From assembly GCA_011389965.1 (NCBI GenBank), contig JAABTF010000008.1, positions 1 through 60,101 on the forward strand: 60,101 nucleotides of DNA, in the 5' to 3' direction. The DNA comes from Halothiobacillus sp. (GTDB lineage: Bacteria > Pseudomonadota > Gammaproteobacteria > Halothiobacillales > Halothiobacillaceae). The first letter of the stretch is position 1. Each line of letters starts with the position of its first letter. A program made the translations under genes and the position numbers. Positions 38,871 to 42,288 of this stretch are shown here, piece by piece. Below the pieces are notes generated by a model. It made no database searches. It was not told where the DNA came from and was given only the letters and a program-made list of their open reading frames with translations.

Positions 38871-39701
38871 TCACACGTCGCGCAGCAACTCGTTGATGCC
38901 CACCTTGGAGCGGGTCTTCTCGTCGACCTTCTTGACGATCACCGCGCAGTACAGGCTGTACTTGCCATCCTTGGACGGCAGGTTGCCGGAGACCACCACC
39001 GAGCCGGCCGGCACGCGGCCGAAGTGGATCTCGCCGGTCTCGCGGTCGTAGATCTTGGTCGACTGGCCGATGTAGACGCCCATCGAGATCACCGAGCCTT
39101 CCTCGACAATCACGCCCTCGACTACCTCGGAGCGTGCGCCGATGAAGCAGTTGTCCTCGATGATGGTCGGGGCGGCCTGCAGTGGCTCAAGCACGCCACC
39201 GATGCCCACGCCACCGGACAGGTGGACGTTCTTGCCGATCTGGGCGCAGGAGCCGACAGTCGCCCAGGTGTCGACCATGGTGCCCTCGTCGACGTAGGCG
39301 CCGATGTTGGTGTAGGAGGGCATCAGTACGGTGTTCTTGGCGATGAAGCTGCCGCGGCGGGCGACGGCGTTTGGTACCACGCGCATGCCGGCTTGTTCGA
39401 AGCGGGCCTGGTCCCAGTCGGCGAACTTGGTCGGCACCTTGTCGAAGTAGTTCACGTCACCGCCGGAGACCACCTCGTTGTTGCGCAGGCGGAACGAAAG
39501 CAGCACGGCCTTCTTCAGCCACTCGTTGACCTGCCAGTCGCCCACGCCCCGGCGCTCGGCCACACGCAGCGAACCGTCGTCCAGGCCGGCCAACGCGGTC
39601 TCGACCGCCTCGACCACGTCGGCCGGGGCATTGCCCGGATTGATCTCGGCGCGGCGCTCGAAGGCCGATTCGATGGTGTCGCGAATGGAAGAGATGTCCA
39701 T
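38871..39701 (-). CDS. dapD: Tetrahydrodipicolinate N-succinyltransferase DapD
   Basis: A 276-residue trimeric enzyme of the left-handed beta-helix class that succinylates tetrahydrodipicolinate. Hexapeptide repeats occupy about 105-235 ([56 protein letters not shown]). The N-terminal helical domain has the conserved [24 protein letters not shown] precedes the ATG. A terminator-like hairpin stands 24-55 bases upstream, in the leader. Confidence 0.97.
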
Positions 39702-39724: not shown

Positions 39725-39756
39725 AAAAACGAGCGGCCGACCTCTGTGGGTCGGCC
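39725..39756 (-). terminator. Terminator-like hairpin in the dapD leader
   Basis: On the minus strand, GGCCGACC (from 39756) pairs with GGTCGGCC across a 5-base loop and is followed by GCTCG and TTTTT (39725-39729), all just upstream of the dapD ribosome binding site. It may stop read-through from the region upstream, or act as an attenuator. Confidence 0.55.
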
Positions 39757-39848
39757 GGGAAACTGGGTAATCAACTGATGGCTATTGTAACAACAGATCG
39801 TTGATGGCGTTTGTCTCCCGGGGTGTGGGTTGTCTGTAGAGCAACCGT

Positions 39849-40140
39849 CAGGGTTTTCGCACGCCGGTTTCGCGGACGGGGTTTTGACGAGCCCGGGTGC
39901 CGGGCGCGCGAGCCCCTTTTCTTGCTTGCCCAAGAAAAGAGGCGAAAAGAAGGGCACCCCGGCGTCCTGGCCCTGCGGGCCTTCGAGCACGTACTTCGTC
40001 CGCACTCGAAGCCTCGCGATCGGTGGCTGCCTTTGGGGCCGGCTCGACGTGACTTCCTGTCACGGCGAGCCTCGGAGCGACGTCCCTGTCGCTCCGACCC
40101 CGAGTCATCCACCGGCCACGAGGCAGGACGCAAGGGGCTT
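39849..40140 (+). repeat. Multi-hairpin repeat element, copy L
   Basis: About 290 bp without coding sense, aligned in inverted orientation to copy R. Hairpins in order: H1 39917-39938 (stem TTTTCTTG/CAAGAAAA), H2 39969-39981 (GGCCC-TGC-GGGCC), H3 39981-40011 (CTTCGAG/CTCGAAG), H4 40041-40071 (outer GGCTCG/CGAGCC, inner GTGAC/GTCAC), H5 40072-40097 (TCGGAGCGAC/GTCGCTCCGA, loop GTCCCT). It lies between dapC and dapD. It resembles a class of intergenic repeats I have seen in other gammaproteobacteria, but this is unverified and no function is known to me. Confidence 0.75.
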
Positions 40141-40228
40141 TGGTTCCCAACCATCCAGCGGCGTGACTCAACTGCTCAAGGCAGCGGGAGCGTCTGGGGT
40201 CCATGTTTCAGTTTTGGGCGAAGGGGGC

Positions 40229-40518
40229 GGTTCCCCTTATGCCTTGCCTCGCGAACGAGTGGGTGCAGGGTCTGTCCGGCATGGACGCCGGCCAGAGGTT
40301 CGTCGCGACACGACGTCGCGTCGAACCGACCCGTCCGCAACCCCTTGTTCGCGAGCCTGATCGGCTCGGATTCAATCCGAGTCGATCAGGCCCGAAGGGC
40401 CAAGGCATCGGGGTGTCTTCTTTTCGTCGGTTTTCTTGGACAAGCAAGAAAATCGACTCGCGCGCCGAGCACGGCAGTGCATCGGTGTCACCTTGGCAAA
40501 CTGGCGTGCGAAACCCTG
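40229..40518 (-). repeat. Multi-hairpin repeat element, copy R (inverted)
   Basis: The second copy, read on the minus strand from 40518. Matching hairpins: H1 40431-40452 (same stem, loop nearly the same), H2 40389-40401 (GGCCC-TTC-GGGCC), H3 40356-40390 (17-bp arms, one mismatch), H4 40297-40327 (GGTTCG/CGAACC outer, GCGAC/GTCGC inner), H5 40272-40295 (CCGGC/GCCGG core, loop GTCCAT). Stems differ from copy L but still pair. The copies are separated by about 88 bp (40141-40228) without clear features. It ends 30 bases before the dapC stop. Confidence 0.75.
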
Positions 40519-40548
40519 TCGAGCGTCAATCACACTCACCAAAACGAA

Positions 40549-41757
40549 TCAGGAAAGCATCGCCCGAATCCGTTCCGCCGCCTCGACGCAGTCGTCCAGC
40601 TCGGCCACCAGCGCCATCCGCACGAACCCCGCCCCGGGATTCACGCCGTTCGTCTCACGGGACAGGAACCGTCCCGGCAGCACGGTGACGTTCTGCTCGG
40701 CGAACAGCCGGCGGGCGAAGTCGCGTTCGTCGCCCTCGACGCCGGCCCAAAGGTAGAAGCCCGCATCGGGCCGACGCACGTCGATGCCGCCGACCGGTCC
40801 GAGGATGTCGAGCACCGCGTCGAACTTCTCGCGGTAAAAGCCGCGATTGGCGCGCACGTGTGCCTCGTCGTTCCAGGCCGTGATGCTCGCCTGCTGAGTC
40901 GGCAGCGGCAGGGCGCAGCCCTGGTAGGTGCGATAGCGCAGGAAGCGCTTGAGCAGGACGGCGTCGCCCGCGACCAGCCCGGAGCGCAGACCGGGCAGGT
41001 TGGAGCGCTTGGAGAGGCTGTGGAAGACGATCACGTTCCTGAACGGATCCTCGCCCCCGCGTTCGGCGGCGACCTCGAGCAGGCCGATGGGCGGCTGGCC
41101 CTCGTCGAAGTAGATCTCGGAATAGCACTCGTCGGCGGCCACCACCACACCAAAGCGGGCAGCCTTCACCAGCAGGTCTCGGTAGCGCGGCGCGTCGATC
41201 ACCGCCCCGCTGGGATTGCCCGGCGAGCAGACGTACAGGAGCTGGGCGCGCTCCCAGATGGCCTCGGGGATCGCGTCGAAGTCCGGCAGGAAGCCGTTTT
41301 CTTCCAGCGTCGGGTAGTAATACGGCTCCGCGCCGGCGAGCAGGGCGGCCCCCTCGTAGATCTGGTAGAACGGGTTGGGCATCAGCACCACCGGCGGCTC
41401 GTCGCCGGCATCCCGATCGACCACCGCCTGGGCAATGGCGAACAGCGCCTCGCGGGTGCCGGCGACCGGCAGCACATTGGCTTCCGGATCGAGTTGCCCC
41501 TCACCCAGACCGAAGCGTCGGGTGAGCCAGTTGGCCATTGCCTCGCGCAGGGCCGGCTCGCCTTTGGTCGCCGGGTAGCGTGCGATCTCCGGCAGGGCCT
41601 CGCGCAGGGTGTCGAGAACGATGGCTGGCGGGGCGTGCCTCGGTTCGCCGATGGACAGCGGGATGTGCTTGCGATCCGCGGGTGGGCGAGCGCCGGCCTT
41701 GAGTTCGGCCAGCTTCTCGAACGGGTAGGGGTGAAGACGATCCAGATCCGAGTTCAT
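40549..41757 (-). CDS. dapC: N-succinyl-L,L-diaminopimelate aminotransferase DapC
   Basis: A 402-residue PLP enzyme of fold type I, class I/II aminotransferase. It begins MNSDLDRLHPYPFEKLAELK, a start typical of the proteobacterial DapC group. The PLP-lysine motif is FHSLSKRSNLPGLRSG; upstream are SIGEPRHAPP, NPFYQIYEGAA, CSPGNPSGAV and DECYSEIYF. It supplies the step between DapD and DapE. ATG 41757 is where conservation begins; no strong SD is visible. The open frame upstream of it is a shadow of the VOC gene. Confidence 0.93.
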   Translation of the reverse strand: MNSDLDRLHPYPFEKLAELKAGARPPADRKHIPLSIGEPRHAPPAIVLDTLREALPEIARYPATKGEPALREAMANWLTRRFGLGEGQLDPEANVLPVAGTREALFAIAQAVVDRDAGDEPPVVLMPNPFYQIYEGAALLAGAEPYYYPTLEENGFLPDFDAIPEAIWERAQLLYVCSPGNPSGAVIDAPRYRDLLVKAARFGVVVAADECYSEIYFDEGQPPIGLLEVAAERGGEDPFRNVIVFHSLSKRSNLPGLRSGLVAGDAVLLKRFLRYRTYQGCALPLPTQQASITAWNDEAHVRANRGFYREKFDAVLDILGPVGGIDVRRPDAGFYLWAGVEGDERDFARRLFAEQNVTVLPGRFLSRETNGVNPGAGFVRMALVAELDDCVEAAERIRAMLS

Positions 41758-41901
41758 GCGCGGCCGTGTCGAGGTGAATACAATGGTTGCGGAGCCTGGA
41801 CGGACTAAGGGAAGGTGCGTGCGGCTTGCCGCTGCCGTCCGAGTCCGTGCCAAATTAGATTTTGGACGGCGATTATACGCGAGTCGATGGGAGGACGAGG
41901 C

Positions 41902-42288
41902 GTGAGTGAAGAGCAAGTGCGTGGGATCGACCACGTCAGTCTGCTGGTCGCCGAGACCGACCGGGCCGAGGGTTTCTATCGGGACGTGTTGGGGCTCGAG
42001 CCGCTGGCGCGCCCCGATCTGGGTTTCCCCGGCGCGTGGTTGTCGTTGGGGGGCGGTCAGGCGCTGCACTTGCTGGAGTTGGCCAATCCGGATCCGGTAG
42101 GTGGCCGACCGGCACATGGCGGGCGTGATCGGCATTTCGCCCTGCGGGTGGCGACTACCGCGCCGTTTGCCGAGCGGCTCGACTGGCATGGCGTCGCATT
42201 CACTCGGTCCCGATCAGGGCGGGATGCGTTGTTCTTCCGCGATCCGGATGGCAATGCAGTGGAATTGGTAGGGATCGGGCCGGCTTGA
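41902..42288 (+). CDS. VOC-superfamily protein (glyoxalase/dioxygenase fold)
   Basis: A 128-residue vicinal-oxygen-chelate protein. It has the paired beta-alpha-beta-beta-beta modules: GIDHVSLLVAETDRAEGFYRDVLGLE at the start and RDPDGNAVELVG at the end, with metal-ligand candidates His in GIDHVS, His in RHFALRV and Glu in AVELVG. The substrate is unknown; small VOC proteins of this length include glyoxalase-like and resistance proteins. GTG 41902 has GGGAGG 7 bases upstream. It is divergent from dapC and convergent with sdhE. Confidence 0.85.
   Translation: MSEEQVRGIDHVSLLVAETDRAEGFYRDVLGLEPLARPDLGFPGAWLSLGGGQALHLLELANPDPVGGRPAHGGRDRHFALRVATTAPFAERLDWHGVAFTRSRSGRDALFFRDPDGNAVELVGIGPA

Follow-up and report, generated by a model that had tools for sequence, protein, structure and literature searches.

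The composite element between dapC and dapD

The window analysed here, a stretch of 60,101 nucleotides, belongs to an incomplete draft assembly of 2.0 Mb in 132 contigs (G000). Between dapC and dapD it carries a composite element with inverted outer ends, made of two inverted arms and a spacer (Table 1). The two head-to-head copies that had been described at this place were confirmed by BLAST: positions 39849-40140 on the plus strand match 40518-40229 on the minus strand, with 71% identity over 240 nt. The base-pair swaps reported in the fourth hairpin (GGCTCG/CGAGCC vs GGTTCG/CGAACC and GTGAC/GTCAC vs GCGAC/GTCGC) are also correct in the sequence. The inner half of each arm, and only that half, exceeds the Rfam gathering threshold of the TwoAYGGAY family (RF01731, 43 bits), on strands opposite to those on which the copies had been read.

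Table 1. Features of the dapC-dapD locus in the window, and nested elements found in arms at other loci
Feature	Position	Strand	Basis or remark
dapD (tetrahydrodipicolinate succinyltransferase), downstream flank	38871..39701	-	
Bp1_684 (RF02421), weak match from the purine strand on, as in Caballeronia	39809..39922	-	21.2 bits
Composite element, two inverted arms of ~300 nt each, ~680 bp in total	39843-40526		between dapC and dapD
Left arm, subtype A, putative ~300-nt structured RNA, outward (leftward) reading	39843..40158	-	
Left homopurine strand AAGAAAAG, predicted triplex stem	39916..39923	-	sequence
Left hairpin 5' strand CUUUUCUU	39932..39939	-	sequence, helix of outward fold
Left predicted third strand UUCUUUUC, parallel to purine strand	39944..39951	-	sequence
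Left pseudoknot strand UGCCC, partner loop GGGCA (39927-39931)	39952..39956	-	sequence, covariation
TwoAYGGAY (RF01731), left arm	39993..40142	-	Rfam, 52.7 bits, gathering 43
Central spacer, variable, without promoter signature	40159..40211	none	
Right arm, subtype B, putative ~300-nt structured RNA, outward (rightward) reading	40212..40526	+	
TwoAYGGAY (RF01731), right arm	40244..40359	+	Rfam, 55.3 bits, gathering 43
Right pseudoknot strand UGUC, partner loop GACA (40439-40442)	40414..40417	+	sequence, covariation
Right predicted third strand UUCUUUUC; first seven bases match purine tract	40418..40425	+	sequence
Right hairpin; homopurine strand AAGAAAA at 40446-40452	40427..40456	+	sequence, helix of outward fold
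ORF containing dapC (class I/II aminotransferase), upstream flank	40549..42189	-	
270-bp nested element	L037:1709-1977, L052:2156-2425, L064:1740-2009, L079:1704-1971		

In the spacer we found no clear AT peak and no sigma-70-like site; a promoter of the element's own there was rejected, and this lack of a signal speaks against the function proposed below. The five ORF stretches across the element carry no Pfam domain, and a decayed coding sequence was rejected on this ground. Directly before dapD, a terminator-like hairpin with a U tract lies on the minus strand (39734-39757); upstream of it, TGTTGTTACAATA is kept in the ten genus genomes compared, and the two together are a possible promoter plus attenuator of dapD.

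Strong intergenic hairpins could also mean that the element itself terminates or attenuates transcription between genes in both directions, and three weak terminator-like matches do fall at 40453-40473. However, these are 5-pair stems on the minus strand, the longest match (9 pairs) is part of the dapD leader, and the four matches found compare with 1.4 in shuffles. Moreover, on the outward strand, the U tract of the first hairpin (H1) comes before the hairpin and not after it. We consider this explanation quite improbable.

Folding, covariation and strand

On the strand read in the original prediction, both copies fold better than 200 dinucleotide shuffles (z of -5.1 and -6.5, with 0/200 shuffles each). 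The alignments of the genus arms, 30 of left type and 34 of right type, support an outward fold of 93 pairs in each arm type, in which 98.7% of the left-type and 98.9% of the right-type cells pair. Double-sided changes affect 17 of the 93 pairs in left-type arms and 19 of 93 in right-type arms. The covariation score was reached by 0/500 column shuffles in each arm type, a control that is optimistic because the alignment rows are related; none of the slid versions attained it either. The selection on structure that had been proposed from the two window copies is borne out across the genus by double-sided changes and covariation, and the proposal of a structured RNA or of an element acting as a single strand is supported as well.

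Wobble-pair polarity, consensus energy and the Rfam matches place the fold on the outward strands, opposite to those originally read. The consensus energy of the left arms is -168.9 outward vs -115.1 on the opposite strand, and that of the right arms -151.6 vs -127.8; single sequences are more stable outward in 30/30 left and 30/34 right arms. Within the base pairs common to the predicted folds of both strands, to which the wobble test was limited, wobble cells fit the outward strand 57 times and the other strand 15 times (28 vs 5 left, 29 vs 10 right). Within this fold, loop 1 is ANGGAN in 64/64 arms, with a constant GGA and variable neighbours, and loop 2 is a pentaloop.

A pseudoknot with a predicted triple helix

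H1 had been described as a hairpin. It is more than that, being part of a pseudoknot: in both window copies, as in the aligned relatives, its loop complements the strand immediately before a pyrimidine linker. The loop covaries with the upstream strand, and the CTTGCC/CTTGTC loop difference is one half of this pseudoknot covariation. This pairing of the loop with an upstream strand, with compensatory changes, is that of an H-type pseudoknot. Of the 30 left-type arms, 19 have UA and 11 have CG as the third knot pair, the pair-type measures being uninformative in this alignment (491 and 500 of 500 shuffles). Other families carry UGUCC/GGACA, UAUCC/GGAUA, CGGCC/GGCCG, UCGCC/GGCGA and further variants.

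Outside the family, the knot was evaluated on 31 modules chosen from 61 for equal length, with one or a few per genome; modules of other lengths, those of Guyparkeria, further same-genome copies, and two loci at odds with the knot (L257 and L267) were left out. In this set 89.7% of the cells are paired and 5/5 pairs are doubly changed; the knot covariation is 0.560 vs 0.235 in shuffles and was reached by 0/500 of them, while for two weaker measures 40 and 29 of 500 shuffles did as well. At least four Watson-Crick knot pairs are present in 102/110 modules, and reassigning the loops among these in 200 trials lowered the mean pair run from 4.52 to 3.62 or less. When the loop was defined more strictly, at least four knot pairs were present in 147 of 211 modules.

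The linker, UUCUUUU or a variant, matches the purine strand of the hairpin in parallel and base for base, with U above A and C above G; an apex of mostly 8 nt separates the tracts. Since the match is a mirror and not a Watson-Crick one, an alternative duplex does not explain it. Among 140 hairpins from loci that were not fetched via the third-strand pattern, many of which came from BLAST with a window copy, linker included, the full third strand lies on exactly one DNA strand in 132, on none in 8 and on both in 0. Its presence in 58/58 modules picked with patterns containing the third strand is by construction.

Of the 165 modules whose linker matches over 5 nt or more, 140 have an exact third strand. 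For the tract types AAAGAAAA, AAGAAAA, AAGAGAAA, AAAGAAA, AAAAGAAA, AAGAAA, GAAAAAA and AAAAA, the commonest linker is their own third strand, and the ninth type, GAGAAAA (2 modules), gives a tie of one and one; the rarer types are represented by 1 to 6 modules, and the off-diagonal cells of the tract/linker table contain linkers one U longer and some wrong-strand reads. Two copies of one genome (G138) present a three-way change, from CUCUUUU with GAGAAAA to CUUUUUU with GAAAAAA, and a third copy combines CUUUUUU with GAGAAAA, a one-base mismatch that speaks against the triplex.

The linker is parallel and isosteric to the purine strand and covaries with it, which we read as the signature of a predicted U.A-U/C.G-C major-groove triple helix; that it would form in RNA is a prediction from sequence comparison. 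Against it, C+.G-C triples favour acidic pH. A pseudoknot with its first loop in the major groove of stem 2 has the topology of telomerase RNA, and in the triple helices of telomerase RNA and MALAT1/ENE a purine-rich stem takes up a pyrimidine strand in its major groove. The predicted U.A-U and C.G-C triples are likewise those of these RNAs, and the topology is as in telomerase; the element differs in being bacterial, multi-copy and predicted from covariation only. To our knowledge, most long pseudoknot-locked RNA triple helices have been described in RNAs of eukaryotes and viruses.

Among bacterial repeats, ITxF and TM-ECO/BoxC also contain a three-strand motif (PMC4666352). The Hoogsteen-pyrimidine-purine order found here is their class IV, whereas the named motif is a GC-rich purine triplex studied as DNA; the paper, which does not use the word 'pseudoknot', searched with loops of 1-6 nt, against the apex of mostly 8 nt here. 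As proposed for other bacterial triplex motifs, the triplex could act in DNA, as H-DNA or an intrastrand triplex, and make polymerases pause or the site unstable; the linker and stem are indeed a mirror repeat. However, a long single strand is required by the covarying loop-to-upstream pairing and by the multi-helix fold, and the wobble polarity is strand-specific. An action in DNA is, in our judgement, very improbable.

Pairs, subtypes and inheritance in the genus and its relatives

In a set of 57 genomes (the window's own plus relatives), copies were found in 18 by BLAST and RF01731 in 19, with 0/14 in controls. The profile search, run on 80 stretches around listed matches and on the window, gave 182 matches, partial ones included, and the 111 near-full copies of the genus cluster into two large subtypes. 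All of the compact inverted pairs (25/25; inner gap 92-140) consist of one arm of each subtype, and the pair therefore seems to have been passed on as a single composite. In nine wider pairs (211-307), and in one at 546, both arms come from the same large cluster.

The full pair is present between dapC and dapD in 8/11 genomes of the genus. The same place holds only the two outer ends in G008, a 160-bp gap without the element in G005, and a gap of ~65 bp without it in G004 (an assembly 64% complete, with a dapD piece 63% identical). The element is therefore dispensable at this locus, a point against the function proposed below. The G008 gap (L164) looks like a remnant with both outer ends, as if left by a deletion between inverted arms.

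One way to explain multi-copy, dispersed, inverted pairs is a non-autonomous mobile DNA (REPIN- or MITE-like), in which the inverted pair is the transposition unit and its single-stranded DNA hairpins are recognised by a transposase acting in trans. The mixed subtypes of the compact pairs, the patchy distribution over genera and the recurrence of whole units of ~450-680 bp in G266, G172, G112, G323, G158 and G274 agree with it. So do the copies whose nearest relative lies at another locus, in another genome (48/111) or in the same one (2 of the 4/111 with a nearest relative in their own genome), counted on locus groups that are incomplete. On the same count, however, 59/111 copies are nearest to the same locus group of another genome. 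Mean identity is 0.78-0.93 among orthologous arms and 0.70-0.80 among same-genome arms at other loci, and is higher among orthologous arms in 10/10 group comparisons, with single same-genome matches up to 0.93.

Compensatory changes also occurred in place, which speaks against mobile DNA. Among the eight dapC-dapD orthologs, double-sided changes are found in 12 left-arm and 10 right-arm pairs, and one-sided changes keep or break pairing 20 and 8 times in the left arm and 24 and 7 times in the right, orthologous copies not being independent. Gene conversion between copies could be the source of some of these in-place changes. The dapC-dapD copies are, on this comparison, old residents kept under selection for structure, and orthologous copies in general are mostly residents.

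The cognate Y1 transposase points the same way. The original prediction had raised a RAYT-type partner; its domain (PF01797) is present in 9 and missing in 10 of the 19 RF01731 carriers, the latter including the incomplete assembly of the window, and RAYT was rejected as a general partner. The element resembles REPIN/BIME in being inverted, multi-copy and structure-conserving; it differs in its much longer arms, in the pseudoknot with predicted triplex and in the lack of a consistent RAYT link. At the empty site of G005 and at the remnant of G008 no MITE target-site duplication was established. The nine wider-spaced pairs with both arms in one cluster, the missing matches in phages and, by pattern, in IMG/VR contigs, and the wobble-rich, strand-specific folding, which suits RNA better, also argue against mobile DNA, which we regard as rather unlikely.

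The window element had no match in plasmids or phages. Three distant units matched 6, 11 and 4 plasmid-collection records over 7-11% of the query, several of these records being of chromosome or megaplasmid size; one of these units had no phage match, and the pattern scan of IMG/VR viral contigs gave 0. Plasmid or phage cargo was rejected on these results.

Left-type arms are interrupted in four species by a 270-bp nested element with 33-bp terminal inverted repeats (Table 1), at about the same arm position, in at least three different loci and in reverse orientation in one of the four. The predicted folding energy of 286-291-nt stretches surrounding it is -180 to -201 kcal/mol. Since the nearest relative of three of the four split arms is an unsplit one from their own locus group, the element more probably inserted repeatedly, and it was rejected as proof of single-arm dispersal. 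In G011, arms stand in alternating arrays with a period near 685 bp that reach the contig ends (L098, L100); tandem repeats with a period up to 500 were not found in two G011 stretches.

Spread beyond the genus

Class-wide sampling confirmed that relatives exist in further Gammaproteobacteria, as the original prediction had stated. The exact module pattern occurs in 46/369 sampled genomes and 38/271 genera, four of the genomes belonging to this genus, while the reversed control pattern listed one genome (G204). RF01731 matches were found in 24/369 genomes, 16 of them above the cut-off, with 7 candidates scored per genome. In 20 loci fetched by the H1 pattern, no TwoAYGGAY match was listed at E up to 1, in a listing that leaves out one lower-scoring overlapping clan member, and the knot therefore seems more general than the TwoAYGGAY domain. 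The arms at these loci share the layout, and we infer that they are homologous to the window arms beyond the knot. One Pseudoalteromonas record carries both the knot and the TwoAYGGAY domain.

Adjacent modules (within 900 bp, by RNA strand, with pairs of the same genome, distance and orientation collapsed) are 13 divergent and 2 tandem in the genus, 8 convergent and 3 divergent in the rest of the family, and 20 divergent and 1 tandem in other families.

TwoAYGGAY corresponds to the inner two-hairpin domain of both arms, on the same strand, and its match excludes the pseudoknot/triplex module and the outer hairpin. In its table row of Weinberg 2010 (PMC2864571) it is rated a probable RNA, probably not cis-regulatory, and that row does not mention inverted pairs. 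The family shares the Rfam clan CL00106 with RsmW and RsmV, and a passage of the RMfam paper (PMC4333381) proposes CsrA binding. In such a role, ANGGAN hexaloops would titrate CsrA/RsmA or allow control of neighbouring messages. The GGA of loop 1, invariant despite its varying neighbours, fits this proposal, as does the presence of CsrA in 49/57 genomes, including that of the window. However, loop 2 carries GGA in only 36/64 arms and CGA in 28, the 20 pattern-fetched loci have no listed TwoAYGGAY, and CsrA is nearly as common without the element (32/38 genomes) as with it (17/19). As an account of the whole element, CsrA binding is unlikely; within the TwoAYGGAY subclass it may come as an additional role.

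The outer part of the arm recalls a second family, Bp1_684 (RF02421), whose score in the window is far below the gathering score of 44 bits, which the Caballeronia loci L290 and L292 exceed. On three Caballeronia records we found 36 matches, 30 of which form 15 divergent pairs. The Caballeronia match runs from the triplex hairpin's purine strand across the outer part of the arm, and the model leaves the linker uncovered. Even so, among the 30 of the 36 loci that were examined, 25 have the full third strand and a GCUGC/GCAGC knot; the others are 1 with a one-base mismatch and 4 without the hairpin. Class-wide, with strict filters and 9 candidates per listed genome, RF02421 had no match in 369 sampled genomes. 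The family derives from Burkholderia sRNA candidate 684, listed as validated by RT-PCR and treated, in the available part of its paper, as a single sRNA (PMC3521395), whereas here it is half of a pair. In Caballeronia, Bp1_684 is a piece of such divergent pairs, and its listed RT-PCR validation is the one hint that such elements are transcribed.

A literature search turned up no account of this triplex element, though one may exist. The related pairs across many Proteobacteria suggest a widespread, little-described kind of RNA element. With a probability slightly short of even, we propose a widespread unrecognised class, composed of divergent structured-RNA pairs in which a telomerase-like triplex knot closes each RNA at its 3' side. 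Such pairs would be scattered over the Gammaproteobacteria, among them Burkholderiales, and kept at their loci; of this class TwoAYGGAY and Bp1_684 would be fragments. If true, two unexplained Rfam families would be joined.

Two further loci presented other repeats. In L228 (G315), repeats of ~230-260 bp occur, one with the 26-nt inverted ends TAAATTATCACTGCTGCC and a TwoAYGGAY match just below threshold; this is perhaps another carrier type. The spacer of L270 (1110-1155, G323) contains a GGATCCCGG...CCGGAATGACG palindrome of the common proteobacterial REP-like kind.

Possible function of the inverted pair

The reading we prefer, tentatively and at not quite an even chance, is a composite of inverted arms, each an outward RNA with a triplex pseudoknot, acting as an RNA stabiliser or insulator. 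The sequence comparisons made here show the structure, its folding strand, the covariation of pseudoknot and third strand, the inverted pairing and the positional inheritance. Read outward, each arm would be an RNA of ~300 nt with a multi-branched 5' domain (here TwoAYGGAY), the pseudoknot and an outer hairpin, and the pyrimidine linker would run along the hairpin's homopurine strand in the major groove, forming the U.A-U/C.G-C triple helix. Since the arms are inverted, read-through from either neighbour would hold one correct arm, with the triplex knot at its 3' side. This knot may stop exonucleases that attack from the 3' end, or insulate the upstream message in some other way. The element would then resemble a BIME/REP stabiliser that serves both directions, except that its triple helix is of the telomerase or ENE kind. 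Stabilising or insulating RNA regardless of orientation is the most likely function, and one we still hold to be doubtful. If true, it would explain the inverted-pair layout, as a function in either direction of transcription. Three-strand covariation in a multi-copy bacterial element would also offer an abundant natural system for genetic tests of triplex function.

The confident gene contexts are 8 co-directional, 2 convergent and 0 divergent in 10 locus groups, with 22/50 units called confidently and 10 of the other 28 reading divergent; the window background is 6 divergent of 28. Since confident contexts are few, flanking orientation is not decisive. In a coarser assignment, 33 contexts were co-directional, 5 convergent and 5 divergent, with 31 unassigned. 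The pairs of genus g3 point inward and those of G011 alternate, arrangements that an orientation-independent stabiliser explains less well.
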